DNA of 43,126 nt from Hydrotalea sp. (GTDB lineage Bacteria > Pseudomonadota > Alphaproteobacteria > JASGCL01). The DNA is taken from the NCBI GenBank assembly GCA_030054115.1, contig JASGCL010000011.1, positions 1-43,126 of the forward strand, given 5' to 3'. Below the pieces are notes generated by a model. The model was not told where the DNA came from. It did not search any database and worked only from the letters and a program-made list of their open reading frames with translations. Shown here one piece after another: positions 20,434-42,413 of the stretch; position 1 is the stretch's first letter, and every line of letters starts with the position of its first letter. A program made the translations under genes and the position numbers.

Positions 20434-20751
20434 TTAGAGTATTTTTTGAAATATCAGGCGCAATACCCATAATTTAATAACGCCGATAATAATAAAAATA
20501 ATAATCGCCGCCCACACCGGTAATAACAACCATGGCACAATAACATTGTCCCAAATAATATTAAGGTGTAAATAACGTTCCATAACAACCTGGAAAAGAT
20601 TCAGGCTGGAAACCGAGGCATTAAACCAGGCCTGGCCCATGCGGTCGGTCCAATCGCTGGTGGCCAAAAAATAAATCGAAAAGAAGCTATAAAAGGCAAT
20701 GATCGCCGTTGAAAGCGCACGATAAAGGTAAAGGAAAAATAAATAAGCCAT
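20434..20751 (-). CDS. Small membrane protein of unknown function
   Basis: I do not recognise this product. The 105-residue protein has an aromatic N-terminal hydrophobic segment (about 3-32) and a second one near the C-terminus (about 75-100). A short loop between them (SDWTDRMGQAWFNASVSSLN) is probably extracytoplasmic. I chose ATG 20751; a TTG two codons upstream is possible. It lies about 120 bp downstream of der on the same strand and may be the last gene of that operon. No Shine-Dalgarno is evident. Support is moderate: membrane-like composition, no overlap with other genes, and convergence on the ftsB terminator. Confidence 0.5.
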   Translation of the reverse strand: MAYLFFLYLYRALSTAIIAFYSFFSIYFLATSDWTDRMGQAWFNASVSSLNLFQVVMERYLHLNIIWDNVIVPWLLLPVWAAIIIFIIIGVIKLWVLRLIFQKIL

Positions 20752-20873
20752 GGCCAACCATAAAGGGTTTGAAGGGAAAAGTCAAGATTGCTAGCCCCCC
20801 CTGCCGATGGGTGAGATAGGCACTTGCGGCTGGTCGCCACGCGCCATTCATGGGCTTGCAATTGCCCCCGCCC

Positions 20874-22475
20874 CTAATCAAATGGATTTTTTTTGACACG
20901 CATCGTCCAGCGGAACGGCACGCCGGCGAAATCGAATTCGTCCTTCAGGCTGTTTTCCAAATAGCGCAAATAATTTTCATTCATCAAATCCTTGCGGGTT
21001 AGAAATATCACAAAATGCGGCGGCCGTGATTTTACATTGATGATGAAATTAATTTTGGCGCGCAAACCGCGACGGCTGGGCGGTGGGTTTTTTTCCATCG
21101 CACGGCGTAGCCAGCGATTCAAACTGGCGGTGTCGATACGTTTGCCCCAGCGTGTGTGTAATTGTTTAATCGCCAGCAACAGCTGGTAAATCCCCTTGCC
21201 GTCCAGCGCGTTCAACGGCATGATGGGTAAATCCTTAACCCGTGGCAACAGATACGAAACCTGCCGTTCAATTTCGGCGCGGGCGCGTTTTTTGTTTTCG
21301 ACCAAATCCCATTTGTTCAGCACCAGGCAAAATGGCCGCCCCTCCTGGATAACCAATTTTATAATCGCCATGTCCTGTTGTTCCAATGGCGCGGTGGCGT
21401 CAATCATTAAAATCGCGACATGGGCAAACCGCAGGGCGGTCAGGGCAAGGTCGACCGATTGTTTTTCAACGGCTTCGGTAATTTTGGCACGCCGGCGAAT
21501 ACCGGCGGTGTCGATGACTTGAAAATCAACCGGCTGGTTATTAATGACGCGCGTAAAATCGTGATAGGTCGCGTCGCGCGTGGTGCCGGCCAGGTCGCCG
21601 GTTAAAACCACTTCCTCGCCGATTAACCGATTGGTCAGGGTCGATTTGCCAACATTGGGCCGACCGAGGATAACCAATTTGATGGTCGATTGCCGGTCGT
21701 TGCGAATTTGTGACGCGCTTCGTTGTTTGGTTGGTTTGGTTTTTTCTTTTTCAGGTGGGGTTTTGGCCGCCTTATTGATGGCGTCATCGATATCATCATA
21801 ATCCTTACCCCATTCGCCGGCTTCCTCATCCATTTGGTCATCGGCCTGGTCGTCTTGGTCTTGGTCATCGGCAAAGGCTTCCTCGGGCAAAATTTTTATC
21901 AAGCAATCGTAAAGTTCCATCATGCCGATGCCGTGGCTGGCCGACATCACCACCGGTTCGACCGCCACACCATTGACGCGGTTGATGGGGTATTTCGCCA
22001 GCAGGTCGGCAACCTCGCCCCGCGCGTTTAACAGCTTGTTGCTATTTTCCCCCTTGTTAATTACGACAATGCAATTGTAGGCGGGTTGTGCGCCTTGACG
22101 TTGTTGCTTCAGGATGAATTCGGCCAATTGCCAATCAAGTTGATTCAGCGGCACCAAGCCATCGACCATAAAAATAAGCAGGTTACTGCGGGTTATTAAG
22201 CCGTAAAGCAATTGCCGCGCCTTCTCATCCATCGCGTCTTTAATCGGTTGAAAACCCACCGTGTCGGCCACCATGAATCGCGCGTTTAATACTTGGGCGG
22301 AACGAACCTCGATATCGCGGGTCAGGCCTGGCATGTCGGCGGTTAGGCGGTTTTTGCGCTCATAACTTTTTACCACCAATCGGTTGAATAACGTCGATTT
22401 GCCAACATTGGCACGACCGATAAGGCTGATGAGGAATTGTTGATGGATGGGCTTTATCATAAGCCGCTCTATCAT
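20874..22475 (-). CDS. der: Ribosome-assembly GTPase Der (EngA)
   Basis: Der carries two tandem GTPase domains and a KH-like C-terminal domain, and is needed for 50S subunit maturation. Domain 1 has GRANVGKST (20-28), PGLTRD, DTVGF and NKGE. Domain 2 has the canonical GRPNVGKST (271-279), DTAGIRR and NKWDLV. Domain 1 deviates from consensus (Ala for Pro in the P-loop, Val in DTxG, Glu in NKxD; a Glu there is common in alphaproteobacteria). The linker between domains (about 195-255) is unusually long and acidic (DDQDQDDQADDQMDEEAGEW). At 533 residues it is longer than the usual 440-490. Its ATG overlaps the cbtA stop as ATGA, placing it in a riboswitch-controlled operon. ATG 22460 (M6) is an alternative start. 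Confidence 0.95.
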   Translation of the reverse strand: MIERLMIKPIHQQFLISLIGRANVGKSTLFNRLVVKSYERKNRLTADMPGLTRDIEVRSAQVLNARFMVADTVGFQPIKDAMDEKARQLLYGLITRSNLLIFMVDGLVPLNQLDWQLAEFILKQQRQGAQPAYNCIVVINKGENSNKLLNARGEVADLLAKYPINRVNGVAVEPVVMSASHGIGMMELYDCLIKILPEEAFADDQDQDDQADDQMDEEAGEWGKDYDDIDDAINKAAKTPPEKEKTKPTKQRSASQIRNDRQSTIKLVILGRPNVGKSTLTNRLIGEEVVLTGDLAGTTRDATYHDFTRVINNQPVDFQVIDTAGIRRRAKITEAVEKQSVDLALTALRFAHVAILMIDATAPLEQQDMAIIKLVIQEGRPFCLVLNKWDLVENKKRARAEIERQVSYLLPRVKDLPIMPLNALDGKGIYQLLLAIKQLHTRWGKRIDTASLNRWLRRAMEKNPPPSRRGLRAKINFIINVKSRPPHFVIFLTRKDLMNENYLRYLENSLKDEFDFAGVPFRWTMRVKKNPFD

Positions 22476-23137
22476 TTTTTAGGGCTTATGGCAAAAACCA
22501 TTATAATGCTGGCCGACAAAATAAACCCGCTGAGCAACGAATACATGACAAACAATTGCACCAACCTCGGCGGCAGGGGCGATGGTGCCATATCCATCGG
22601 CAATAACATCCCCACCACCAATGACGGCAGGGTTAGCAATAATATCGATAATGCTAAGCGCAATGGCCGTGCCAGTCGGTCAATAAAAAAACCGGTGTGT
22701 AATAACAACCCAACCCCGGACGACAGCACCAACCCCAGCCATACAAATTGCCGGGACAATAGCTCATGGTGCTCATGATGCTCGCCCATGCCCGGTAACG
22801 TGGCCGGCAAAGAAATCGCCGGAATAAAAAACACCGCCAACCAAAAACAAACAACCCAAGGGAAAGCATTTTTTAAGGTGATGCGCAAATCAAGCATATA
22901 AAGGATGGCAAATAACCATAAGGACAAACTGACCGCGCTGGCCAGGTTGGCAACCATGGTGCCCGAAAACCGCGCCATCGCCAATAAATTTGGCGCGGTG
23001 CTGAGTTGTTGTTCCAACTGCTCGCCCATGGCGATAAGCGGCAGGGTAAGGAAAACCGATGTCATGGTGCTCACCGCCCCCGCCACCAGCCCGGCCAGCA
23101 ATGCTCGCCAAACGCCGGATAAAAAATTTACCGGCAT
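22472..23137 (-). CDS. cbtA: Cobalt transporter subunit CbtA
   Basis: CbtA is the polytopic component of a predicted cobalt uptake system usually regulated by cobalamin. The 221-residue product begins with the family-like FLSGVWRALLAGLVAGAVST and has about six hydrophobic segments. It carries a histidine-rich loop, GMGEHHEHHELLSRQ, that could bind metal. It follows cbtB by 14 bp and lies downstream of a cobalamin riboswitch, which supports the call strongly. The start ATG is 23135-23137. Its TGA overlaps the der ATG (ATGA). Family assignment is by pattern recall. Confidence 0.85.
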   Translation of the reverse strand: MPVNFLSGVWRALLAGLVAGAVSTMTSVFLTLPLIAMGEQLEQQLSTAPNLLAMARFSGTMVANLASAVSLSLWLFAILYMLDLRITLKNAFPWVVCFWLAVFFIPAISLPATLPGMGEHHEHHELLSRQFVWLGLVLSSGVGLLLHTGFFIDRLARPLRLALSILLLTLPSLVVGMLLPMDMAPSPLPPRLVQLFVMYSLLSGFILSASIIMVFAISPKK

Positions 23138-23151
23138 TTACAATATAATTA

Positions 23152-23376
23152 TTAATGGCATGGAAAATTCAAACCATGGCGCGTGTCATGGGCCGCGTTA
23201 TGCAGATTCGGTTGCGCCGAAAAAGCCGTCAGCCACAGGCCGCCACTCGCTAAGAACATCATGGCCAGGCCGAGTAAAAAACGGCTGGTCGCTGGCGACA
23301 ATAGCTTGGCGTGGATATTGGTTCGGGTTTTCGCCGCGCCACCATGTTGCGCGGTGATGATAGATAATTTATTCAT
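23152..23376 (-). CDS. cbtB: Cobalt transporter subunit CbtB
   Basis: CbtB is a small single-span protein of the CbtAB cobalt uptake system. The 74-residue product has a cytoplasmic N-terminus, one membrane segment (about 33-52) and the diagnostic C-terminal metal-binding motif HNAAHDTRHGLNFPCH (59-74). That motif contains four histidines and a cysteine. The start ATG at 23374-23376 has a strong Shine-Dalgarno (GAAGGAG). It is the first gene after the cobalamin riboswitch; cbtA and der follow. Confidence 0.9.
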   Translation of the reverse strand: MNKLSIITAQHGGAAKTRTNIHAKLLSPATSRFLLGLAMMFLASGGLWLTAFSAQPNLHNAAHDTRHGLNFPCH

Positions 23377-23451
23377 TTTTCACTCCTTCGGAAAAATAGT
23401 TTTTTTTTAAAAACAACCCTCTCAAACCCATGGCAATAAACCACAAGGCAG

Positions 23452-23730
23452 AAATTGTTGCTACCACGGATGGCAGGTTTCCTGACTCTGGCACGGGTGC
23501 AATTATTTATAATAAATTCTTGCGCTATAAAAAAAACCTTCCCAATTGCTCAGTGGTTTTTCCTACGTTGCGTTGTTAATAAAAACAACAACAACCCCAG
23601 GCCTACAGTTGCGAAGGACAGTTGAGATTACCAAACGCCAATCATGGCTAATTCGATTCCCATTCCCTATTAAGCCCCATTTGCCAAACGATTGTGGCAA
23701 ACAGGCACCAGCTATAGTAACCCAACATTA
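23452..23730 (-). ncRNA. Cobalamin (adenosylcobalamin-class) riboswitch
   Basis: Read on the minus strand, the conserved blocks occur in the correct order: GGTGCC (23709-23704), AATAGGGAA (23671-23663), CGCAACTGTAGG (23613-23602), CCACTG and GGGAAGG, and the B12 box GTCAGGAAACCTGCC (23486-23472). The order and spacing match the known cobalamin aptamer. About 75 nt separate the box from the cbtB start codon. I see no clear intrinsic terminator there, so control of translation initiation is more likely. With cobalamin bound, expression of cbtB, cbtA and probably der would fall. Confidence 0.92.
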
Positions 23731-39048: not shown

Positions 39049-40581
39049 ATGGCCGATATTAACCCAAGCGAAATTTCAAAAATTATCGAAGCTGAAATAA
39101 GCGGTAGCGACGATGGCGGCATGGTGGCGGAGGTCGGCACCGTCCTTTCGGTGGGCGACGGTGTGGCGCGGGTTTATGGCCTGTTGTCGGTGCAGGCCGG
39201 CGAAATGGTCGAATTCGAGGGTGGCGTTCGCGGCATGGCATTGAACTTAGAAAGCGATAATGTCGGCGTGGTTATTTTTGGCGACGACCTTAAGGTGAAA
39301 GAGGGCACGCAGGTCAAACGCACCAAGCAAATTGTTTCCACCGCGGTGGGCAAGGAATTGTTGGGCCGGGTGGTCGATGGCTTGGGCATGCCAATCGACG
39401 GCAAGGGGCCGCTCAAAACCAAAGAAACGCGATTGGTCGAAACCAAGGCGCCGGGGATTATCCCAAGACAATCGGTTAACGAACCAGTGCAAACCGGCCT
39501 GAAGGCGTTGGACGCGTTGGTGCCGGTCGGTCGCGGTCAGCGCGAATTGATTATCGGCGACCGCCAAACCGGCAAAACGGCGGTGGCGATTGATGCTATT
39601 TTGAATCAAAAGAAAATTAACGAAGGCAAAGATGAAAGCAAAAAACTTTATTGCATTTACGTCGCGGTTGGGCAAAAACGCTCGACGGTTGCCCAGGTGG
39701 TGAAGGTGTTGGAAGAACATGGCGCGATGGATTACACCATTGTGGTGGCGGCCACCGCGTCTGACCCCGCGCCGGTGCAATTCATGGCGCCCTATACCGG
39801 TTGCGCGATGGGCGAATATTTCCGCGACAATGGCATGCATGCGTTGATTATTTATGATGATTTGTCGAAGCAGGCCGTGGCCTATCGCCAGATGTCATTG
39901 CTGTTGCGCCGCCCACCGGGTCGCGAGGCTTACCCCGGCGACGTTTTTTATTTGCACTCGCGGTTATTGGAACGGGCGGCGAAAATGAACAAAGACCATG
40001 GCGGCGGGTCATTGACGGCGTTGCCGATTATCGAAACCCAGGCGAACGACGTGTCGGCCTATATCCCGACCAACGTGATTTCGATTACCGACGGCCAGAT
40101 ATTTTTGGAAACCGGTTTATTTTACAAGGGGATTCGCCCCGCCATCAACGTGGGTATTTCGGTCAGCCGAGTTGGTTCGGCGGCGCAGACCAAGGCGATG
40201 AAAAAAGTTTCTGGTTCGATTAAATTGGAATTGGCGCAGTATCGCGAGATGGAGGCCTTCGCGCAATTTGCGTCTGACCTTGACCCCGCGACGCAAAAAT
40301 TGTTGGCGCGTGGTGCGCGTTTGACCGAGTTGTTAAAACAACCGCAATTTTCACCACTGACCGTGGGCGAACAGGTGGTTGCGATTTACGCCGGCACCAA
40401 GGGTTATTTGGATAATGTTAAGGTGAGCGATGTTAACCGGTTTGAGGCCGAGATGTTGCAACATCTGCGCACCAAGGGCAAGGCATTGGCGGCGGAGATT
40501 GACGACAGCGGCCAAATAACCGATGCGACCGAGGGCAAAATCAAAAGCTTCCTTGATGATTTTGCGAAAAAATTTGCATAG
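39049..40581 (+). CDS. atpA: F1 ATP synthase subunit alpha
   Basis: The alpha subunit forms the non-catalytic nucleotide sites of F1. The 510-residue product is highly conserved: [14 protein letters not shown] near the start, Walker A GDRQTGKT (170-177), [47 protein letters not shown] (in part) and [17 protein letters not shown], the alpha/beta signature. It has one of the strongest Shine-Dalgarno sequences in the window (AAGGAGA). It should be followed by atpG, atpD and atpC, but a TM2 gene intervenes and atpD/C are absent. Confidence 0.98.
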
Positions 40582-40621
40582 GGTCAAGCGGTTATATTCG
40601 TTATATTTGCAGGAAGTCTTT

Positions 40622-40837
40622 ATGAAAACATCTAATAAGTTGATTACGCCAACTTTTATTCTTTGTTTGTTTTTGGGCGTGCTTGGCGTGCATTGTTTTT
40701 ATGTTGGTAGACCAGGGCGTGGTTTGTTGATGTTGATAACGCTTGGGGGATATGGTATTTGGGCATTCATCGATTTAATTATATTAGCAGGACGAAATTT
40801 TAAAGATGGCAATGGACGCGTATTAACAAATTGGTAA
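40622..40837 (+). CDS. TM2-domain membrane protein inserted between atpA and atpG
   Basis: The 71-residue product is a TM2-domain protein. It has two membrane helices (about 9-26 and 36-56) separated by a short turn containing VGRPGRG, and the second carries GGYGIWAFIDLIILAG. Such proteins are widespread, but their bacterial function is unclear. ATG 40622 has a good ribosome site (AGGAAG); the frame is open back into atpA, but that part is a shadow. Its codons are more AT-rich (many ATT, TTT, GTT) than those of the adjacent atp genes, hinting at a later insertion. It lies 40 bp after atpA and 21 bp before atpG. Confidence 0.8.
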   Translation: MKTSNKLITPTFILCLFLGVLGVHCFYVGRPGRGLLMLITLGGYGIWAFIDLIILAGRNFKDGNGRVLTNW

Positions 40838-41776: not shown

Positions 41777-41783
41777 CGTTTTG

Positions 41784-42413
41784 ATGAAAGACGATAAATA
41801 TAAAGATTTTTCTGAAGAAGAATTGAACGCCCGCCACCACGAAAAAATGGCGAAGAAAAAGGCGGCGCGGGATAAGATGCTCGCCAATATCACCGCCGAA
41901 AAGGGATTGTTGATGGTTTACACCGGCAAGGGCAAGGGCAAAACGACGGCCGCCATGGGGTTGGTAACCCGCGCCTTGGGCAATGATTTCAAAGTCGGTG
42001 TGGTGCAATTTGTTAAGGGGGCGTGGCCGACCGGCGAGGAAAAAATTCTCAGCGTGCAAAAAAATTGTGTTTTCAAACGGATGGGCGAGGGTTTTACCTG
42101 GGACACCCAGGACAGGCAAAAAGACATGGCGGCGGCCGACCGCGCGTGGCAGGAGGCGGTGAAGATGATAAATGACCCGGCGATTGATTTGCTTTTGCTG
42201 GATGAATTGAACATCGTGCTTCGTTATAATTATTTGGAACATGACGTGGTGCAAAAAATATTGGCCAACAAACGCGCGACGCAACATATTGTTATCACCG
42301 GTCGCAACGCGCCCGATTGGTTGGTCGAGATGGCCGATTTGGTAACCGAATGCACCGAGGTCAAACACCCGTTCAAAGCCGGCATCAAGGCGCAAAAGGG
42401 AATTGAGTATTAA
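41784..42413 (+). CDS. cobO: Cob(I)yrinic acid a,c-diamide adenosyltransferase
   Basis: CobO (BtuR/CobA type) attaches the 5'-deoxyadenosyl group from ATP to reduced corrinoids. The 209-residue product has an N-terminal helical, lysine-rich region (1-40), then the P-loop YTGKGKGKTTAAMG (46-59). VGVVQFVKGAW, FTWDTQDRQKDMAAA, LLLLDELNIVLRY and VITGRNAPDWLVEMADLVTE follow. ATG 41784 is preferred over the adjacent TTG 41781. It belongs with the riboswitch-controlled cobalt transporter as a second cobalamin function in the window, but it sits just downstream of atpG and I see no riboswitch before it. Confidence 0.94.
   Translation: MKDDKYKDFSEEELNARHHEKMAKKKAARDKMLANITAEKGLLMVYTGKGKGKTTAAMGLVTRALGNDFKVGVVQFVKGAWPTGEEKILSVQKNCVFKRMGEGFTWDTQDRQKDMAAADRAWQEAVKMINDPAIDLLLLDELNIVLRYNYLEHDVVQKILANKRATQHIVITGRNAPDWLVEMADLVTECTEVKHPFKAGIKAQKGIEY

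Follow-up and report, generated by a model that had tools for sequence, protein, structure and literature searches.

Can a gene for an essential ribosome-assembly factor come to lie under a vitamin sensor, and if so, does the sensor set its level? The GTPase Der is essential for growth in Escherichia coli. In the window analyzed here, i.e. the whole 43,126-nucleotide stretch of DNA that forms contig 11 of a draft genome (1.68 Mb, 91 contigs, 95.5% complete), a cobalamin riboswitch aptamer, cbtB, cbtA, and der follow one another on one strand (Table 1), with ordinary housekeeping genes on both flanks of the locus. Were transcription to run through the whole locus, a factor of ribosome assembly that is otherwise constitutive would take its level from a vitamin sensor. 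Even with buffered expression, the locus is a clean natural example of how an essential gene can be trapped behind a riboswitch, in which it can be tested how off-switches are escaped, be it by read-through, internal promoters, or polarity. An earlier note on this DNA knew of no described connection of Der to cobalamin riboswitches; we likewise found none in the open-access papers searched.

Table 1. Features of the riboswitch-cbtBA-der locus, in window positions
Feature	Position	Strand	Basis
Cobalamin riboswitch aptamer, RF00174	23455..23727	-	cmscan, 45.7 bits, E 1.9e-8
Terminator-like hairpin, candidate expression platform	23414..23460	-	folding, shuffles
Candidate antiterminator, J6/3 and P1 3' strand against hairpin 5' arm	23440..23490	-	prediction only
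cbtB, predicted cobalt transporter subunit	23152..23376	-	PF09489
cbtA, predicted cobalt transporter subunit, divergent	22472..23137	-	PF09490
der/engA, ribosome biogenesis GTPase Der, 533 aa	20874..22475	-	TIGR03594, PF14714
ATGA overlap of cbtA stop and first der ATG	22472..22475	-	sequence

The earlier note had placed a cobalamin aptamer at 23452-23730 on the minus strand and had proposed a covariance-model scan of this region, which bears it out: the RF00174 match spans the whole model (1-189) and, with 45.7 bits, exceeds the cut-off of 31.5. All core segments are present in the alignment (GGGAA, CGCAACU, CCACUG...GGGAAGG, and GAGUCAGGAAACCUGCC). RF00174 is the sole RNA family above its cut-off in a cmscan of the whole window, and this is the one cobalamin riboswitch matched in the entire assembly, which is 95.5% complete. 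The score lies well under those of most other alphaproteobacterial aptamers, which mostly reach 80-139 bits, probably because of the large inserts in the peripheral arms. We regard the match as a candidate cobalamin-binding regulator, with both cobalamin binding and an effect on expression as predictions.

CbtAB is a predicted cobalt transporter, recognized by comparative genomics (PMC2667541). The note's assignment of cbtB and cbtA to the two minus-strand genes after the aptamer, which are separated by a gap of 14 nt, is upheld by Pfam, with CbtA scoring 72.4 bits against PF09490 (gathering score 30.7) and CbtB 46.8 bits against PF09489 (gathering score 27). The stricter NCBIfam cut-offs of TIGR02458 and TIGR02459 are missed by CbtA (62.0 vs 182.9 bits) and CbtB (43.9 vs 64.4 bits), respectively, and the two proteins are therefore best described as divergent members, predicted to form a cobalt transporter, with cobalt as the putative substrate. 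The genome also encodes cobN, cobO, methylmalonyl-CoA mutase, and a corrinoid-binding protein, so that there is a cobalt/B12 economy to regulate. Two of these genes lie against ATP-synthase genes. Within the window, cobO, for cob(I)yrinic acid a,c-diamide adenosyltransferase (41781-42413, plus strand, TTG start), begins 4 nt after atpG and is followed by a pyrE-like gene; atpD is not adjacent to atpG, and a 104-aa ORF with a likeness, by eye, to TM2-domain proteins lies between atpA and atpG (40523-40837, plus strand). On contig 10 of the same genome (G000), cobN (L107:1444-5289, minus strand) lies downstream of glnA and 34 nt upstream of atpB.

Family tests show a complete Der: it scores 394.7 bits against TIGR03594 (GTPase_EngA, cut-off 306.7), contains the GTPase domain PF01926 twice and the KH-like domain PF14714 once, and is encoded by the only copy of the gene found in the 95.5% complete genome. 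It is 533 aa long, compared to open frames of about 440-510 aa in most relatives, and the linker between its two GTPase domains (21700-21870, minus strand) is long, acidic and then basic. The overlap between the TGA of cbtA and der, to which the earlier note had drawn attention, is real for the first der ATG. A start at the alternative in-frame ATG at 22460, 15 nt downstream, would remove it and leave an 11-nt gap, and since the matches to full-length homologues begin at about residue 8-18, both starts (22475 and 22460) are possible. Downstream of der lies a 107-aa membrane-protein-like ORF (20434-20757, minus strand) with no Pfam match, just before which there is a promoter-like site.

The position of der is unusual and, judged from gene order, derived. 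When the BamB of this genome was used as the query for der loci from other alphaproteobacterial genomes, bamB was the immediate 5' neighbor of der in 32 of the 37 loci, and two of the five loci without an adjacent bamB stop at a contig edge. In the genome studied here, bamB is on contig 1, which carries no der; a co-directional gene lies just upstream of it, and downstream there is a gene for an unrelated protein whose N-terminus is signal-like. Because the bamB-der pairing is common elsewhere and broken here, der has moved. The cbtA-der junction, for which the earlier note had suggested a search of related genomes, was seen in the window alone within a class sample of 385 genomes, drawn evenly with one per species and including no same-order member. 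CbtA is matched in 86 other genomes of this sample, and wherever the positions of both cbtA and der are listed, the two genes lie on separate contigs or 60 kb or more from each other; der is absent from all fetched cbtA loci other than that of the window. Among the 41 genomes covered by both the riboswitch and the der search, no other has a riboswitch leading to der. Only in G035 do a riboswitch and der come to within 10 kb of each other: a weak cobalamin riboswitch (G035:C1:25216-25540, plus strand) follows der at a distance of about 2.5 kb and cannot control it.

A der promoter inside cbtA, which the earlier note had offered as the alternative to a shared transcript, finds no support. A scan for consensus promoters gave no minus-strand match within cbtB-cbtA, and the best site in a matrix scan is equaled in roughly every second random stretch of the same length, although the matrices describe E. 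coli sigma-70 promoters and may miss the promoters of this organism. The best promoter-like match, TTGAAT-19-TATATT at 23172-23142, is thus at chance level. The missing Shine-Dalgarno sequences at cbtA and der were considered as a sign of translational coupling, a reading that was dropped, as many of the window's sound genes likewise have none.

Between the aptamer and cbtB, directly 3' of P1, lies a 47-nt hairpin of 17 pairs, several of them G-U, followed by UUUUU. Its energy is -15.8 kcal/mol (z -2.9), and shuffling the hairpin gave a structure as stable in 12 of 1000 cases. One of 100 shuffled leaders contains an equally good terminator-like element in a search that included the last 10 aptamer bases, the hairpin beginning inside the Rfam boundary. 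Among the 948 window 47-mers with T5 after them it ranks 70th, 69 others folding at least as well, and comparable elements occur in a few other alphaproteobacterial cobalamin leaders (G001 and G002), most having none. The evidence for a terminator is moderate, and we consider this role plausible. By folding, the hairpin is compatible with P1. The candidate antiterminator reaches -11.1 kcal/mol as a local structure and falls 4-9 kcal/mol short of the best fold of the elongating RNA. Because the hairpin evidence is moderate and the antiterminator is weaker than the competing folds, we put forward switching by the ligand as a proposal only.

The common strand, the tight spacing, the lack of a promoter above chance level, the hairpin, and the removal of der from the bamB operon together support an operon well, and der is likely co-transcribed with cbtBA. 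The riboswitch operon of the earlier note thus stands as regards gene order, spacing, hairpin, and relocation, whereas for its single transcript, as for the attenuation mechanism, the response to the ligand, and the effect on Der levels, we infer rather than observe. In the model that we propose, one transcript would start upstream of the aptamer and run through cbtB, cbtA, and der. With ample adenosylcobalamin, the aptamer would close P1, the adjacent hairpin would form, and part of the transcription would end before cbtB, the translation of which may also drop. When adenosylcobalamin is scarce, more read-through would raise cbtB, cbtA, and der alike. Basal read-through would keep the essential Der supplied, with a B12-responsive component on top. 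We see even chances that a riboswitch-led cbtBA operon captured der from a bamB-der operon and that attenuation combined with basal read-through gives Der such a component. Control of Der by B12 is plausible, but an undetected promoter or the basal read-through could buffer the essential gene. It appears rather doubtful that adenosylcobalamin truly controls Der in this lineage, and by way of Der also growth rate and the assembly of the large ribosomal subunit, with low B12 raising Der together with cobalt uptake and high B12 lowering Der by attenuation.

The main rival to this model is that neutral operon shuffling, by rearrangement in a reorganized genome, placed der behind cbtA while its expression is buffered by a promoter inside cbtA or by constitutive read-through, so that the riboswitch would matter for cobalt uptake only. 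This explanation, which we consider a real possibility though short of probable, gains weight from the placement of cobO between atpG and pyrE and of cobN before atpB, neither of which has an obvious functional link to its neighbors. Der is moreover expected to be needed at every B12 level, and cbtBA contains a promoter-like match, albeit one at chance level. However, the junction is so tight that a der promoter must sit in coding sequence, where no site exceeds chance, and the terminator-like hairpin precedes cbtB, so that der, too, would lose transcripts that begin at the main promoter.

A purely translational riboswitch would merely hide or free the start of cbtB in a continuous transcript, and der would change, if at all, through translational coupling or Rho-dependent polarity. 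Translational control is the usual prediction for cobalamin riboswitches of Gram-negative bacteria, and transcriptionally active ones are reported in 10 of the 15 Gram-negative taxa examined (PMC12121620). The strong Shine-Dalgarno sequence of cbtB (GAAGGAG, duplex energy -9.0 kcal/mol), with none such at cbtA or der, would fit this explanation. In the predicted fold, however, that sequence lies in a weak A-U hairpin and is not paired with the aptamer, its absence at der is uninformative, and a terminator-like hairpin is present; we therefore judge a purely translational switch improbable. Far less credible still is an assembly artefact, a chimeric contig in which cbtBA would be joined to der from an unrelated locus. 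The assembly is a draft of 91 contigs, and the sample contains no same-order genome to confirm the junction, but the frames of cbtA and der are both intact and share the ATGA, which means that a false join must fall exactly at the stop-start overlap, and ordinary housekeeping genes lie on either side.

Two known systems come closest to the riboswitch-led cbtBA operon with der. As in cbtBA operons of other alphaproteobacteria (G001, G007, G016, G022, and G037), the aptamer precedes cbtB-cbtA on one strand; the other such operons seen contain no der, whereas here der directly follows cbtA, and both the aptamer and CbtA are divergent. A yfgM-bamB-engA operon is described in Pseudomonas (PMC5870910). 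The bamB-der operon is the normal home of der, and the present genome retains its bamB and the co-directional upstream gene, but der is gone from it and stands behind cbtA on a different contig.
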